NCBI RefSeq assembly: GCF_016901575.1
Contig: NZ_JACJKQ010000003.1
Location: forward strand, 1 to 64,000
Length of the DNA: 64,000 nucleotides
Direction of reading: 5' to 3'
Origin: Enorma phocaeensis
GTDB lineage: Bacteria > Actinomycetota > Coriobacteriia > Coriobacteriales > Coriobacteriaceae
Shown: positions 3,760 to 54,723 of the stretch, one piece after another
Position numbering within the stretch: the stretch's first letter is position 1
Layout of the letters: each line of letters opens with the position of its first letter
Translations under genes and position numbers: made by a program
The notes under the pieces: model-generated
What the model saw: the letters and a program-made list of their open reading frames with translations, nothing else
Databases searched by the model: none
What the model was told of the DNA's origin: nothing

Positions 3760-5757
3760 AAGCAGCCTCTCCGCAGCCTCGAGAGCGTCGGCGGTACCGA
3801 TGAGCCCCACGTAGTCGCCGGCCTTGAGCACCGTCGAGGCATCCAGGAAAAGCTCCATCCCCTCCCCGCGGCGCAGCGCGACGGCGTTGGCACCGGTGCG
3901 TGCCCTAAGGTCGAGCTGCGCCAAGGTGCAGCCCGCAAGCGGGCACATCTCGCCCACCGCGACCCAATGCAGGTCTACATCGGCAAGCGAGGCCAGCAGG
4001 CGCTCAAAGGCGTGCATGCGCTTGCCCTGGGCGCCGTCGCCGAGCGCCTCGTAGCCGCTTGCACGCAGGTCGTTCGCATAACCTTGTATCTGCTTGGGTC
4101 GATACCCCAGGTCGAGCAGCGTATGGCGCATGAGCTCGATGCCGCCCTCGAGCTCGGGACGAACGACCTCGTCTGCGCCGGCGGCCACGAGCGCAGCGAC
4201 CCCGTCCTCGCCCTCGGCGCGCGTCACGATGCGAAGGCCCGGAGCCAGCTCGCGCGCGTCGCGGGCGATGAGCTCGGCGGTCGCGTCGCCGTGGCTCGCG
4301 ATCACCATGACCCGCGCGCCCGCCAGGTGCGCATGCTCCAAGATCTCGGAGTTCGCGGCGTCGCCCACGAGCACGCTGAAGCCGTCCGCCTCGGCCTCCT
4401 CGGCGACCTGCAGCTCGCGCTCGACCACCAGGCACGGAATCTCGAGGTTCTTGAGCACCTCGGTCACGCAGCGGCCGGCATGTCCGTAGCCGACCACCAC
4501 GACGTGGTCGTGAAGGTCTTCTGCCGGCGGGGCAACGTGGTGCACATGCCGCTCATACAGCGCCGAAAGGCGCGCGCGGGAGCTCATCCACCGCTCGATG
4601 GGCTCGATGCCCTTGAAGGCAAATGAGTTGAGCGCGATCGACACCACGGCTCCGCCCAGAATGATGCTGTACTGGTCAGGGGAGAGGATTCCGAGGGCCA
4701 TGCCCGTCTGCCCGATGATGAACGAGAACTCTCCGATCTGCGAGAGGCCGGCGGCCACGGTGAGCGTCGTGTGCAGGCCGGCCGAGAGCAGCGTTCCGAG
4801 CACCATGTTGATGAGCCACTTGCCCACGATGATGAGCGCCACGAGGGCCACGAGCTCGGGCAGGTGCGCAGCCAGCGTCGCGGGGTTCACGCTCATGCCC
4901 ACCGAGGCGAAGAAAATGATGGAGAACAGGTCTTTAAAGGGAATCGCCTCGGCGGCGACGCGGTGCGAGAGCTTGGAGCCGCTCACCACCACGCCGGCGA
5001 GGAAGGCGCCGAGCGCCACCGAAAGGTCGAAGAGCAGCGATGCCGCCATGGCGGTGCCGAGCGCAATGACCACCACGGCGAGCTGGAAGAGCTCGCTCGG
5101 GCAGAAGCGCGCGATACGGGAGAGCAGCCAGGGAAGCACGCGCGATCCCACGACCAGCATGATCGCCACGAAGGCCACCGTCTTGACGAGCGCCTCGGCT
5201 AGGCCCGCGGCAAGCGCCGGGCCCGAGACCTCGCCCGGACCAAACACCACCGGCAGCACCACCAGAATCACCACGGTGGCAAGGTCCTCCACGATGAGCC
5301 AGCCCGTGGCGACGCGCCCGCCATGGCTTTGGTAGAGCCCGGCGTCGGTGAGGTTCTTGATGAGGACCACGGTGGAGGCGATGCTCACCGAGAGCCCCAG
5401 CATGATTCCCGCCTCGGGCGACCAGCCAAATGCCATGGCCAGCGCGTAGCCGGCAAGCGTGCCGGCGACGATCTGCAGAATGGCGCCGGGGATCGCGATG
5501 CCCTTCACCTCGAAGAGGTCTTTGAGCGAGAAGTGAAGGCCCGTGCTGAACATCATGAACATGACGCCCACCTCGGAAAGCTGGTTCATGGCGTCCGAGT
5601 CCCCGATGAAGCCGGGGGTAAGCGGGCTCACCACGAGCCCTCCCAGCAGATAGCCCACGATGGGAGGCAGGCGCAACGCCCGCGCCACAAGGCCGCCGAC
5701 AAACGCGGCGACGAGCGCGAACACAAATGTCATGAGCAGAATGGTCTCTCCGTGCAT
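3751..5757 (-). CDS. Cation:proton antiporter, CPA2/KefB type, with TrkA domains
   Basis: A 668-residue membrane protein. About residues 1-390 form some 12 membrane segments of the Na+/H+ exchanger fold. A TrkA-N (RCK) nucleotide-binding domain follows, beginning with the Rossmann motif VVVVGYGHAGR near residue 415, and a TrkA-C domain closes the protein (about 590-668). This layout matches YbaL/KefB-like K+ or Na+/H+ antiporters gated by bound nucleotide. GGAGG precedes the ATG. It stands alone; the transported ion cannot be decided from sequence. Confidence 0.9.
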   Translation of the reverse strand: MHGETILLMTFVFALVAAFVGGLVARALRLPPIVGYLLGGLVVSPLTPGFIGDSDAMNQLSEVGVMFMMFSTGLHFSLKDLFEVKGIAIPGAILQIVAGTLAGYALAMAFGWSPEAGIMLGLSVSIASTVVLIKNLTDAGLYQSHGGRVATGWLIVEDLATVVILVVLPVVFGPGEVSGPALAAGLAEALVKTVAFVAIMLVVGSRVLPWLLSRIARFCPSELFQLAVVVIALGTAMAASLLFDLSVALGAFLAGVVVSGSKLSHRVAAEAIPFKDLFSIIFFASVGMSVNPATLAAHLPELVALVALIIVGKWLINMVLGTLLSAGLHTTLTVAAGLSQIGEFSFIIGQTGMALGILSPDQYSIILGGAVVSIALNSFAFKGIEPIERWMSSRARLSALYERHVHHVAPPAEDLHDHVVVVGYGHAGRCVTEVLKNLEIPCLVVERELQVAEEAEADGFSVLVGDAANSEILEHAHLAGARVMVIASHGDATAELIARDARELAPGLRIVTRAEGEDGVAALVAAGADEVVRPELEGGIELMRHTLLDLGYRPKQIQGYANDLRASGYEALGDGAQGKRMHAFERLLASLADVDLHWVAVGEMCPLAGCTLAQLDLRARTGANAVALRRGEGMELFLDASTVLKAGDYVGLIGTADALEAAERLLAA

Positions 5758-6335: not shown

Positions 6336-7079
6336 CTAGCCCCTTAGGTCGAACTTCCGAACGACCCGCTCGATCCGACGGGTCCACGGGACGTACAGCG
6401 CCCCCAAAAACACGACGGTCGCTGCCCCGTGCATGAGGTCAAACGGCAGCGCCGCGGCCACGCGCGCGACGGCGCCGGGCCATGTCAGCGGCTGGACAAA
6501 GGCGACCACGTCGTAGAGGTTGATCACCGCGCCGTACACCAGACCCGAGGCAAACCCCCATCCGAGCAGCGGGACCATGGCGACGCGCCCGCCACGGCGG
6601 CGGAAAGCGCCGGCATCGGCCAGAACGCCGCCCATGTACCCCACAAGGCCCCAGGCGTACATCTGCCAAGGCGTCCACATGCCCTGGCCAAAGAAGAAGT
6701 TGCTCGTCAGGGCGGCGAGCGCGCCCACCATGAATCCGTTCCTACGCCCGAGGACCGCCCCCGCGATGATGGCGATCGCAGAAACCGGCTTGAAGTCGGG
6801 CACCGCCGCAAAGAGCACGCGCCCCGCCGCCGCAAGCGACGCCAGCACCAGGGTCGGCATGATCTGCCTCAGCGCCGGCCGGCTCGCCTCGTAGCCAGCA
6901 AAGAACAGCCCAACCACCAGGCCCACGACGACAAGCAGCAGCAACGCAGACTGGGCGAGGCCCGCCGCGGCGCAGGCGAGCATGGCGGCCGGAACCGCAA
7001 ACAGCGCCGGAACCTCCAGATGGCGGAGCAGGCGCGCGCAGCGGCCCGGATTCTCAGGGGCGGTAGTAGACGTTTCCAC
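6336..7079 (-). CDS. ECF transporter substrate-binding (S) component
   Basis: A 247-residue membrane protein with about six hydrophobic segments, the expected size for an ECF S component, which captures a vitamin or similar micronutrient and docks on EcfT. The GTG start at 7079 is chosen because AAGGAG lies 7 nt upstream, inside the end of the ATPase gene, giving a 26-nt overlap; a longer frame reaches 7124 without a matching site. It is the last gene of a four-gene coupled operon. The substrate is unknown; coupling to an external propeller protein suggests a large, scarce ligand such as a cobamide, which is only inference. Confidence 0.82.
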   Translation of the reverse strand: METSTTAPENPGRCARLLRHLEVPALFAVPAAMLACAAAGLAQSALLLLVVVGLVVGLFFAGYEASRPALRQIMPTLVLASLAAAGRVLFAAVPDFKPVSAIAIIAGAVLGRRNGFMVGALAALTSNFFFGQGMWTPWQMYAWGLVGYMGGVLADAGAFRRRGGRVAMVPLLGWGFASGLVYGAVINLYDVVAFVQPLTWPGAVARVAAALPFDLMHGAATVVFLGALYVPWTRRIERVVRKFDLRG

Positions 7080-51252: not shown

Positions 51253-52422
51253 CTACAGCGGGTCGCTTCCTTGGCGCAAGATATGTAGATACGCCTCATA
51301 CATATACGTGCGGTAGCGCGCGCGTTCGGCATCCTTGCGCTGTAAGATGCCGCACGTCTCGAATTCTTTCACCAGGTTGGCTGCGGTGCCACGTGAGACC
51401 TCTAACCTGTCACGAACATAGTTAACGTCCACAATGGGATTGCCCTCAAGCACATCGAGCAACTTGAGCGCGTTGGGGACCGACCGGTCGAAGCGCTCGC
51501 GAACAAGCGCCACCGTTTTGTTGTGCAGTTCGACCAGCTGGTTCAGCGATGCCACGGCATCTTTCGCTCCGTCGAGCATGCATTGGCAGAAGAACTCAAT
51601 CCAATCCTCGAACGCTCCCGTCTCACGCACCGCCGTCAAATGAGCGTAGTACTCCTGGCGATTGAGTTTGAACTGGTAGGAGGGGTAAAACAGAGGCGAA
51701 TCGAGAACGCCGTCGTTGATGAGCGACAACGTTATGAGCAACCGTCCAAGACGCCCATTGCCGTCAAGAAACGGATGAATGCTCTCAAACTGATAATGAA
51801 CGAGCGCGGCCTTGATAACCGGGTCGACTCCTTCCTCCGTGTTAATGAATTTGTCTAGCTCGAAGAGGGCATCGCGCATGTCCTCAACATTCGGCGGGAG
51901 ATAGAACGCCGATTTAATGTCACACCCCTGTGGACCAATCCAGTTTTGCGAAACCCTGATTTCTCCCGGTTGCTTCTCACCACCACGACCGCTTTGCAGC
52001 AGCACCCTATGCACCTCTCGCAGAAGGCGCGTACAAAGCGGCAGCGTTTTCATGCGTTCGACAGCGAAATCGGAAGCCTGCACGTTATTCACCACGTCGG
52101 CTACATCTTCATGAGTTGCCGCGCTATTCTCGGGATCAAGAACGTCATCAAAGGTGCACTGCGTTCCCTCAATCTGCGCGGAAAGCAGCGCCTCTTTACG
52201 AACATACATAGTGAGATACATATCGGCATTCGGCACAAACTGAGCCATGCCGGACAGCATGCCGACCTGTCGAGAACATGCTGCCAGCAAATCGATTTGC
52301 CGAGCCGATAGCTGCAAGGTCGGCAATACATCATGCAGCGACGCCGGAAGAAACGACTGATAGGCGAGCTCTCCCGATAGATTATTGCGCAGGGTGCCCT
52401 GTCTGCCGGGAACGATATTCAT
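51253..52422 (-). CDS. Fic family protein with C-terminal winged helix
   Basis: A 389-residue Fic protein. The catalytic loop HPFLDGNGRLGR starts at His216, so AMP transfer to target proteins is expected. The N-terminal inhibitory helix is LSAQIEG (Ser81 to Glu85), which makes it a class II, self-inhibited Fic. The last 100 residues carry a winged helix (VNYVRDRLEVSRGTAANLVKEFE). AAGGAGGCGGC fixes ATG at 52422. Its codon use is visibly more A+T rich than that of its neighbours, suggesting transfer. A palindrome array lies in its upstream region. Confidence 0.92.
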   Translation of the reverse strand: MNIVPGRQGTLRNNLSGELAYQSFLPASLHDVLPTLQLSARQIDLLAACSRQVGMLSGMAQFVPNADMYLTMYVRKEALLSAQIEGTQCTFDDVLDPENSAATHEDVADVVNNVQASDFAVERMKTLPLCTRLLREVHRVLLQSGRGGEKQPGEIRVSQNWIGPQGCDIKSAFYLPPNVEDMRDALFELDKFINTEEGVDPVIKAALVHYQFESIHPFLDGNGRLGRLLITLSLINDGVLDSPLFYPSYQFKLNRQEYYAHLTAVRETGAFEDWIEFFCQCMLDGAKDAVASLNQLVELHNKTVALVRERFDRSVPNALKLLDVLEGNPIVDVNYVRDRLEVSRGTAANLVKEFETCGILQRKDAERARYRTYMYEAYLHILRQGSDPL

Positions 52423-52470
52423 GCCGCCTCCTTGCATTCAACATGAGCAGGATGCGAAGCATTGTAACAC

Positions 52471-52637
52471 CTAACGACAATTTTAAGCCTGTTTTTGACG
52501 TTAGGAGAATTGCATGGGCTCTAACGACAAGTTATTGTCGTTAGAGCCGTCTACAAGATTCTAACGACAATTTCAGGTTGATTTTTGTCGTTAGAATTCG
52601 ATCGGATGCTCTAACGTCAACAACTTGTCGTTAGAGC
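52471..52637. repeat. Array of four palindromes, centres 45 bp apart, upstream of fic
   Basis: Eight copies of the half-site CTAACGACAA stand as four inverted pairs: 52471/52495, 52521/52535, 52561/52585 and 52611/52625 (start positions). The centres fall at 52487.5, 52532.5, 52577.5 and 52622.5, exactly 45 bp apart. Loops alternate 14, 4, 14 and 4 nt. The second palindrome is a perfect 14-bp stem (52517-52548). Spacer sequences differ. It lies 50-215 nt upstream of the fic start and after the Nudix gene stop, so it is best read as an operator array or hairpin series. Confidence 0.9.
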
Positions 52638-52756
52638 GCAAAGCCAGGCTCGTCGCTATGGCGAGCGAGCCTCCGTTCCGCAATTTGGATTCTGTCCCGA
52701 GACGCAGGGCGTCTCGGGCACAACCTAGCCATTCTTCAATCAGGACATGCGGCACA

Positions 52757-53428
52757 TTACTTGGAGCGACGGTGCAGCGCGGCCTCGCGGGCATGCGCCG
52801 CAAGGATGCCGGCAACGGTCTTCGCATCCGTGATGGATCCGTCCAGGACGGCCGCCACGAGCTCGGACATGTCCACCATGTCGACATTCAGAAACTCGTC
52901 GGCATCGGGGCTTGCGCCCACGAAGCGCAGCCCGTGCGCAAGGTACACGTGCACCACCTCATCGCTATAGCCCGGCGACGGGGCAACGCTTACCAGCGGC
53001 ACCAGCTCGTCCGCCACAAAGCCGGTCTCCTCGCGAAGCTCGCGGCGGGCGGCAACGGCCGGCTCCTCGCCGGGGTCGAGCTTGCCGGCGGGGATCTCCA
53101 CCGTCACGGCATCGAAGGGCGTGCGATACTGTCGGACTACGGGAACCTGGCCGCCAGGCGTCACGGCGACCACGGCCACGCCGCCCGGATGGCGCACCAC
53201 GTCGCGATGCTCCGCAGCGCCGTCGGGCAGCGTCACGCTCAGGTTGTGAACGTCGATGACGCCGCCGCGCCACACCGGCTCATCCGCACCGATCTGCTCG
53301 TGAAGCGCGGCGTCGCGCGCATCCGCGTCTCCCGGCGTGAAGGGCCGGGCAGGCCACGGGGACTCCGCGAAAGACGACGGCATCGCATGGGGCAGCCCTG
53401 CAGAGGCGCCCCTCTCCTCCGCCGCCAT
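52757..53428 (-). CDS. Nudix hydrolase, ADP-ribose pyrophosphatase type (second copy)
   Basis: A 223-residue Nudix protein with the full box GKLDPGEEPAVAARRELREETGF and the flanking VVRQYRTPFDAVTVEIP typical of ADP-ribose pyrophosphatases. It hydrolyses a nucleoside diphosphate derivative, probably ADP-ribose. It starts 3 nt before the stop region of the upstream paralogue (53431), with GGAGGAG placed inside that gene's end, so the two are coupled. It closely resembles the upstream protein from about residue 45 on. Confidence 0.9.
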   Translation of the reverse strand: MAAEERGASAGLPHAMPSSFAESPWPARPFTPGDADARDAALHEQIGADEPVWRGGVIDVHNLSVTLPDGAAEHRDVVRHPGGVAVVAVTPGGQVPVVRQYRTPFDAVTVEIPAGKLDPGEEPAVAARRELREETGFVADELVPLVSVAPSPGYSDEVVHVYLAHGLRFVGASPDADEFLNVDMVDMSELVAAVLDGSITDAKTVAGILAAHAREAALHRRSK

Positions 53429-53430
53429 CG

Positions 53431-54189
53431 CTACTCCTCCGCCAGACGATGCGCCATGACCTCGCAGGCGAGCGCACCGACGACGGTCTTGGAGTCCTCG
53501 ATCTTGCCGTCGAGCACGGCGTCGACGAGCTCGTTCACCGGCACCAGGTCGACATTCAAGAACTCGTCCTCGTCGGGCTTGGCGCCTTCGAAGCTCAGCT
53601 GCGTGGCGAGGTAGATGTGGATAAGCTCGTCGGAGAAGCCGCAGGACGAGGCGATCGTGGTGAGATAGGCGATGCGTCCCGCCACGAAGCCGGTCTCCTC
53701 TTTCAGCTCGCGCTTGGCGCACTCGAGCGGCTCCTCGCCGGGGTCGAGCTTGCCGGCGGGAATCTCGACCGTCACGCAATCGAGCGAGGTGCGGTACTGG
53801 CGAACGAGCGCGATCTTTCCCGTCTCGGTCAGGGCGACGATGGCCACGGCGCCGCGGTGGCGCACCACGTCGCGAAGCGAGGTGCGGCCGTTGGGCAGAC
53901 GGACCTCCAGGCGTTCGACGTCGAAGATCTTGCCCCTCCAGGCTATATCGCTCGAGATGACCTCCTCATGCAGGTCGGCATCATGCTCGGCCTCGTCGCC
54001 CAATATGAGCGACGGGGTCTCTTCGGGCTCGGGGCTATCGGCAGTCTCATAGGGCTCGCGAGCGCAGGCGTCGGCATCGGCCTCCTCGGCTACGCAGGAG
54101 TCGTCCTCCACGTCGACATCGGCGGAACAGGAGCAAGCCTCGGGCTCCGAAGTCTCAAGACGCTCATCGGTCTGGTCAAGCTCTGCCAT
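53431..54189 (-). CDS. Nudix hydrolase, ADP-ribose pyrophosphatase type (first copy)
   Basis: A 252-residue Nudix protein with box GKLDPGEEPLECAKRELKEETGF. Its first 75 residues are acidic (many Asp/Glu, several Cys) and have no counterpart in known family members I recall. The core resembles the downstream paralogue, which points to tandem duplication. GAGGAGG precedes ATG at 54189. ADP-ribose, which sirtuins and Fic-like reactions do not release directly, is only the likely substrate. Confidence 0.9.
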   Translation of the reverse strand: MAELDQTDERLETSEPEACSCSADVDVEDDSCVAEEADADACAREPYETADSPEPEETPSLILGDEAEHDADLHEEVISSDIAWRGKIFDVERLEVRLPNGRTSLRDVVRHRGAVAIVALTETGKIALVRQYRTSLDCVTVEIPAGKLDPGEEPLECAKRELKEETGFVAGRIAYLTTIASSCGFSDELIHIYLATQLSFEGAKPDEDEFLNVDLVPVNELVDAVLDGKIEDSKTVVGALACEVMAHRLAEE

Positions 54190-54360: not shown

Positions 54361-54723
54361 TTATGCGTGCTCCGCCTTCGGCTTTGCTGCGGGACGCTTT
54401 GCAGCCTTTTCCAGCTCCGCTGCACGGGCGACGCCCTTGGGCGTGGCCCGATACTCGTTGCCCAGCTGCCCACCCGATTCGTCGTACACCGCCGTAGAGG
54501 TGATGAACCCGTCGCGACGCAGGCGCGTCACCGCATGGTCGAGCGAACGCACGCAGCAGCCCAGCCGCCGCGCGAGGTCCGTCTTGTGAAACTGGACCGA
54601 CCCGCGCATCTGCGTCTCGCGCGCGACCAGCTCGAGCACGCGCTCGTGTATGAACGCGTGCCTCCCGTTGATTTTGGTACTGATGCCCTTCAGAGAAGAG
54701 CCCTCTCCCGCCTTCATGCCCAT
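54361..54723 (-). CDS. Small winged-helix DNA-binding protein
   Basis: A 120-residue protein with a helix-turn-helix of the winged type: VQFHKTDLARRLGCCVRSLDHAVTRL then the wing RRDGFITSTAVYDESGG. The C terminus is an Ala/Lys/Pro tail (EKAAKRPAAKPKAEHA) like that of nucleoid proteins. GAGGACGG lies before ATG at 54723, with a second ATG two codons on. It could be a local regulator; its targets are unknown. Confidence 0.65.
   Translation of the reverse strand: MGMKAGEGSSLKGISTKINGRHAFIHERVLELVARETQMRGSVQFHKTDLARRLGCCVRSLDHAVTRLRRDGFITSTAVYDESGGQLGNEYRATPKGVARAAELEKAAKRPAAKPKAEHA

Follow-up and report, generated by a model that had tools for sequence, protein, structure and literature searches.

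A 45-bp-phased palindromic array before a SoFic-type fic gene of Enorma phocaeensis: a candidate operator for autorepression

Operator control through palindromes is familiar for toxins of the Fic superfamily from the phd-doc system. There it is the antitoxin Phd that binds DNA, whereas at the locus described here the Fic protein carries its own DNA-binding domain, and the window (the whole stretch of 64,000 nucleotides analysed) showed no antitoxin gene adjacent to fic. CccR from Yersinia pseudotuberculosis, a T6SS effector comprising a Fic domain and a C-terminal helix-turn-helix, binds as a dimer and represses its own gene through AGATAATCAT-N26-ATGATAATCT, as demonstrated by footprint, EMSA and reporter assays (PMC9755527; structure PDB 7xux). 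For SoFic (SO_4266), the namesake of a type of toxic phage-defence enzymes, no DNA binding had been demonstrated as of 2023 (PMC10628234), and we found no description of an operator or of DNA binding in either PMC10628234 or PMC12249575. E. coli Sofic is restrained by AS1, a small protein encoded downstream, and the wild-type enzyme is toxic under leaky expression (PMC12249575). Finally, CbFic2 from Coxiella burnetii (PDB 8cil) is a class II Fic protein with a winged helix, whose activity is stimulated by DNA binding (PMC10628234).

Like CccR, the Fic protein encoded in the window combines a Fic domain with a DNA-binding C-terminus, and in both cases inverted half-sites of about 10 bp lie near the gene's own promoter (close to -35 and -10 for CccR). 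Here, we examine an array of palindromes upstream of this gene as a candidate operator.

The fic gene and its upstream array

The gene and the relevant parts of its product are:

51253 to 52422, minus strand: fic, encoding a SoFic-type protein adenylyltransferase with a C-terminal winged helix (Pfam, PADLOC, PDB)
52165 to 52182, minus strand: SAQIEG, residues 86-91
51742 to 51777, minus strand: Fic catalytic motif HPFLDGNGRLGR, residues 221-232, numbered from 52437
51355 to 51393, minus strand: recognition helix RGTAANLVKEFET, residues 349-361 (AlphaFold model)

Pfam identifies Fic_N and Fic (both above cut-off) and a MarR_2-like domain in the product, and HPFLDGNGRLGR agrees with HPFx(D/E)GNGRxxR. 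SAQIEG fits (S/T)xxxE(G/N), the pattern of the inhibitory motif in class II Fic enzymes. The PADLOC SoFic model matches residues 28-388 (E 1.2e-103), the SoFic structures 3eqx and 3zcn align over residues 23-386 with the winged helix included (E 2.4e-28), and Foldseek comparison with the SoFic structure gives the same fold (TM 0.74). The score against the NCBIfam SoFic equivalog NF046030 is 153.6 bits for a cut-off of 550, suggesting that the protein is a SoFic relative rather than the narrow equivalog. That it ends in a winged helix, as a preliminary description of this DNA had held, is supported both by the AlphaFold model, which places the recognition helix at 349-361, and by the SoFic alignment. 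The product is predicted to act in phage defence via AMPylation.

A half-site scan located eight CTAACGACAA half-sites forming four inverted pairs at 52471-52634, next to a -10-like hexamer:

52461 to 52466, minus strand: -10-like hexamer TACAAT, 4 nt past L1 on the fic strand
52471 to 52504: L1, long palindrome, half-sites 52471-52480 and 52495-52504, spacer 14, adjoining the fic promoter
52521 to 52544: S1, short palindrome, half-sites 52521-52530 and 52535-52544, spacer 4
52561 to 52594: L2, long palindrome, half-sites 52561-52570 and 52585-52594, spacer 14
52611 to 52634: S2, short palindrome, half-sites 52611-52620 and 52625-52634, spacer 4

The half-sites start at 52471+, 52495-, 52521+, 52535-, 52561+, 52585-, 52611+ and 52625-; six are exactly CTAACGACAA and the remaining two are CTAACGTCAA. 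Pair centres fall at 52487.5, 52532.5, 52577.5 and 52622.5, a step of exactly 45 bp, with spacers of 14, 4, 14 and 4 inside the pairs and 16 between every two neighbouring pairs. On the fic strand this reads S-16-L-16-S-16-L, where S and L are the short and long palindromes. With up to one mismatch allowed, the 64-kb window contains eight half-site matches, all inside the array's 164 bp, against a mean of 1.5 anywhere per 64 kb in shuffled windows, and the same genome holds no second copy of the array. Recomputing the coordinates reproduced exactly the four inverted pairs, the 45-bp step and the alternating 14/4 loops first described, and the geometry recurs in relatives, where the conserved module is S-16-L-16-S. 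The accompanying claim that the spacing is under selection is well supported. Among the 31 exact-core pairs of relatives, the centres of S and L are 45 bp apart in 24, 46 bp in six and 47 bp in one.

Regularly spaced repeats might also be iterons or some other replication-related site, as had been suggested. We regard this as scarcely credible, as the repeats form symmetric dyads beside a promoter, have no adjacent Rep gene, vary in chromosomal position and are tied to fic.

The likely fic start codon is the ATG at 52422, preceded by AGGAGG, within an open frame that begins at 52437; the L1 centre lies 65.5 bp upstream of this codon. The array had been placed in the fic transcribed leader, but TACAAT (52466-52461) falls between it and the start, which puts the array on the upstream side of the predicted -10, abutting the promoter. 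This -10 was assigned from its conserved position; a sigma-70 consensus scan of the window gave no promoter, and fic has no consensus -35, the -35 position falling within L1. Since no -35 is recognisable, the site could conceivably serve activation in place of repression.

In most close homologues an L-type dyad sits some 60-67 bp ahead of the start codon, with TATAAT-like hexamers concentrated 5-6 nt past its 32-bp core, and in several the final half-site overlaps the Shine-Dalgarno sequence. By shuffling (P<=0.05), a significant dyad precedes 26 of 39 genes in the closest group, 13 of 19 in the next and 4 of 18 in the most distant, and the shuffling scan also found dyads of the same shape before relatives in Lachnospira eligens, Aminobacter and Cupriavidus. 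In an outgroup scan, some of the plasmid relatives (L236, L240, L242) had clear dyads, while those in Rhizobium and Citrobacter were borderline; Thermus, S. meliloti and Acetobacter yielded none, and the dyad of a Brochothrix phage relative resembles the terminator of the preceding gene. Taken together, these positions point to an operator overlapping the promoter rather than to leader RNA. As a separate observation, the Fic relative of L240 (Aminobacter plasmid pAA04) has a TIR-domain gene on one side and a HamA (Hachiman) gene on the other, which is a defence-island setting.

On the far side of the window array, two adjacent and related genes, named by eye as NUDIX-type (52757-53383 and 53431-54189), lie upstream on the same strand. 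Two GC-rich inverted repeats without T runs, CCCGAGACGC..GCGTCTCGGG and GGCTCGTCGC..GCGAGCGAGCC, are located at 52646-52717, where they separate the array from the end of the NUDIX gene, and are possibly where the NUDIX transcript ends.

Arrays with and without fic

To follow the array beyond the window, a flexible pattern permitting gaps of 14-20 and 20-24 bp was run against a collection of 84,980 species. It matched 20 contigs, all apparently Coriobacteriia (one or two labelled only 'actinobacterium'), and nearly all matches were exactly 74 bp long. A covariance model of S-16-L then showed the array to be widespread in the Coriobacteriia, a class of gut bacteria, with hits in 73 of the 398 genomes. 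Most of these have a single site, or two that are 1.3-1.7 kb apart; in the two-site genomes examined, the arrangement is array-fic-array. The Fic subfamily is present in 75 of the 398 genomes and occurs together with the array in 33 (Fisher P 5e-9). In 31 of these 33 the two lie within 300 bp of each other, and in the two exceptions (G232, G322) fic has a separate, different dyad with half-site TTATTTCAA. Array-fic pairs occupy many different chromosomal sites, which makes fic, rather than another neighbour, the common factor; it is the sole gene recurring next to arrays. Regulation by a neighbouring gene was rejected, as the other neighbours vary from site to site.

The search for 45-bp-phased pairs upstream of Fic homologues in Coriobacteriia, proposed in the preliminary description, thus found them there. 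The same description would have given up the link to fic had the array been missing before orthologous genes and present at unrelated loci. The first half of this did not occur, arrays being found upstream of homologous fic genes; the second did, as solo arrays also lie at unrelated loci. The Fic subfamily is absent from 40 of the 73 array-bearing genomes, some of which keep both palindromes intact, and autoregulation alone leaves these solo arrays unexplained. They look largely like places where fic was lost.

Many fic genes lie between two sharp-edged arrays that are nearly identical to each other, also in their linkers. The 5' and 3' arrays agree at 72/74 positions in L040, 71/74 in L093, 71/75 in L096 and 65/74 in both L024 and L036, while the L040 flanks outside the arrays are identical at only 6/20 and 9/30 positions. 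The stop codon of fic may overlap with the CTAACG that comes first in the 3' array. Arrays on this side of the gene lack a promoter that they could control, which counts against the operator reading. At least five chromosomal sites (UDG/CorA, ior, pyrE and two more) hold array-fic(-array) in one species and a solo array in another. At UDG/CorA, the intergenic gap is mostly <=88 bp (one of 194) in relatives without the array, 116-494 bp where a solo array lies directly between the genes, and 1.3 kb in L215 (from the genome of L109), where fic occupies the site. Of about nine solo arrays there, three retain S with L lost, and several are intact across genera. A fic N-terminal remnant (MSNARLGHYEMQPSGYRSYVPQPLPPHLR*) follows a solo array in L129 (reverse complement, ~5060-5200) and a C-terminal remnant precedes the 5' array in Collinsella sp. 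An2, showing that fic loss happens.

In many relatives the arrays form direct repeats around fic, and they largely seem to stay behind as solo arrays once fic is lost, a pattern resembling that of solo LTRs. Deletion between direct repeats would explain the solo arrays, and this is the mechanism of loss that we infer. Sister fics belong to different families, which suggests horizontal transfer of fic. We tentatively raise the possibility, short of an even chance, that the operator arrays are boundaries of a removable cassette, with fic recombining out precisely, a solo array remaining and re-entry being possible. If so, a single site would serve both regulation and gene turnover.

A stronger version, in which the arrays are mainly recombination or attachment sites of a mobile fic cassette and regulation is secondary, seems unlikely. 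It would account for near-identical 5' and 3' arrays between dissimilar flanks (L040, L093, L096), for the sites that are solo in one species and occupied in another, and for sister fics in different families. However, no integrase or recombinase was recognised by eye among the gene calls adjacent to arrays, the promoter L dyad is retained in homologues without flanking repeats, homologous deletion between repeats yields solo arrays with no dedicated system, and viral contigs (IMG/VR) gave no match to the array. An attC-like, REP-like or viral element was rejected on the missing recombinase, the usual single site per genome and the IMG/VR result.

Several features near arrays may be recorded here. 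Homologues of a small helix-turn-helix-like ORF in the window (54361-54723) lie close to the solo arrays of L081 and L089, which probably reflects conserved gene order around purD. In L025 (3132-3458; also L074, 5133-5459) a short ORF starts within the end of the solo array, and its product (EVDFNSGVGHEPAKRRPAIVV) presumably resembles a MazF/PemK-type toxin. L106 (G165:C143) has enlarged arrays at 4943-5335 and 6583-6948, with extra palindromes on both sides of fic and half-site TAATCACAA.

Half-sites and the recognition helix

Across homologues, half-site classes track the start of the recognition helix. Proteins with helix RTTA have mostly TAACGnnAn half-sites (some have TAAT, others TAAC), ASG goes with TAAGAACGA, YNT with TTATTTCAA, and xPTA mostly with ..AAAG. 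Half-sites ending in AAAG accompany seven of nine proteins with Pro350 and none of the 36 others, and in a tree that used the Fic core and left out the winged helix, this combination occurs on at least two separate branches. In a column-wise test using hand-curated half-sites and corrected for overall distance, columns 347-352 rank high among 327 alignment columns (P 1.6e-5), although phylogeny is a confounder here: high ranks also go to unrelated columns, and the overall winged-helix partial correlation is only 0.18. The comparison suggests that the half-sites of many SoFic-type genes can be read as a code, under which G350P in the winged helix would shift preference from TAACGACAA towards TAACGAAAG.

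Another host DNA-binding protein might instead read the arrays, with fic merely adjacent. The solo arrays in genomes without the Fic subfamily, several of them intact across genera at UDG/CorA, are what such a reader would leave. On the other hand, the half-site follows the Fic recognition helix, also on the other, separate branch where Pro350 goes with AAAG; there is usually one array site per genome with fic as its only recurring neighbour; and the remnants beside two arrays show that fic can be lost. We consider another reader improbable.

Slightly less probable again is that the palindromes act as RNA or single-stranded DNA hairpins, whether as leader RNA, terminators or attC-like recombination hairpins. 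They fold strongly (z -9.1) and their arms covary (0.270 against 0.140 shuffled); the S hairpin of Eggerthellaceae resembles a terminator, with T runs coming after a stem that is extended and GC-rich; solo arrays are often found between convergent genes, and the three reduced UDG/CorA loci retain S alone. However, a dimer-bound double-stranded operator yields equal arm covariation, and since this measure fits both cases it was left out of the evidence. What separates them is the agreement of half-site bases 7-10, which is 0.71 within a palindrome, 0.70 across the palindromes of an array and 0.45 between loci: arms are no more alike within palindromes than between them, as for one double-stranded-DNA-binding reader and not for hairpins. 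Most arrays also lack the S stem extension, no terminator was found in the window array, and an Rfam search of the array gave chance matches only, none near the gathering score. The structured leader RNA put forward in the preliminary description, and hairpins generally, were set aside on the arm comparison and the position upstream of the -10.

The reading that we favour, at a probability of roughly 0.83, is that the array is the operator for autorepression by the SoFic-type Fic protein. Autoregulation of this kind had been proposed at the outset, and it is well supported by fic linkage, promoter position, half-site/helix covariation and the CccR precedent. The putative reader would be a SoFic-type Fic protein with an adenylyltransferase domain, a built-in inhibitory motif and a C-terminal winged helix, binding half-sites as dimers, one per palindrome. 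As L1 overlaps the -35 region and lies directly beside the -10, protein bound there would shut off transcription, and further palindromes at 45-bp steps could recruit several dimers for cooperative binding and tight repression, which a toxic abortive-infection enzyme would need. Binding, its repressing rather than activating sense, cooperativity and an eventual relief of repression are all steps that we infer. For the control of SoFic-type expression, this would provide a candidate operator with a half-site code covering a large gene set. An operator that can outlive or bound its gene would also bear on the gain and loss of defence genes.

Comparison with known Fic systems

SoFic itself (PDB 3eqx, 3zcn) has the same domain order as the window Fic protein over residues 23-386. 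CbFic2 likewise pairs a class II Fic domain with a winged helix; unlike the case here, it has no defined specific DNA site (PMC10628234). Sequence similarity between CccR and the window Fic protein is weak, and the sites are arranged differently: CccR uses one pair with a 26-bp spacer, whereas the spacers here are 14 and 4 with linkers of 16. In place of a single pair, the palindromes number three or four at a phasing of 45 bp, often with a second array downstream of the gene. On our reading, autorepression by a Fic protein, so far a single case in CccR, would extend to a phased array of several sites.
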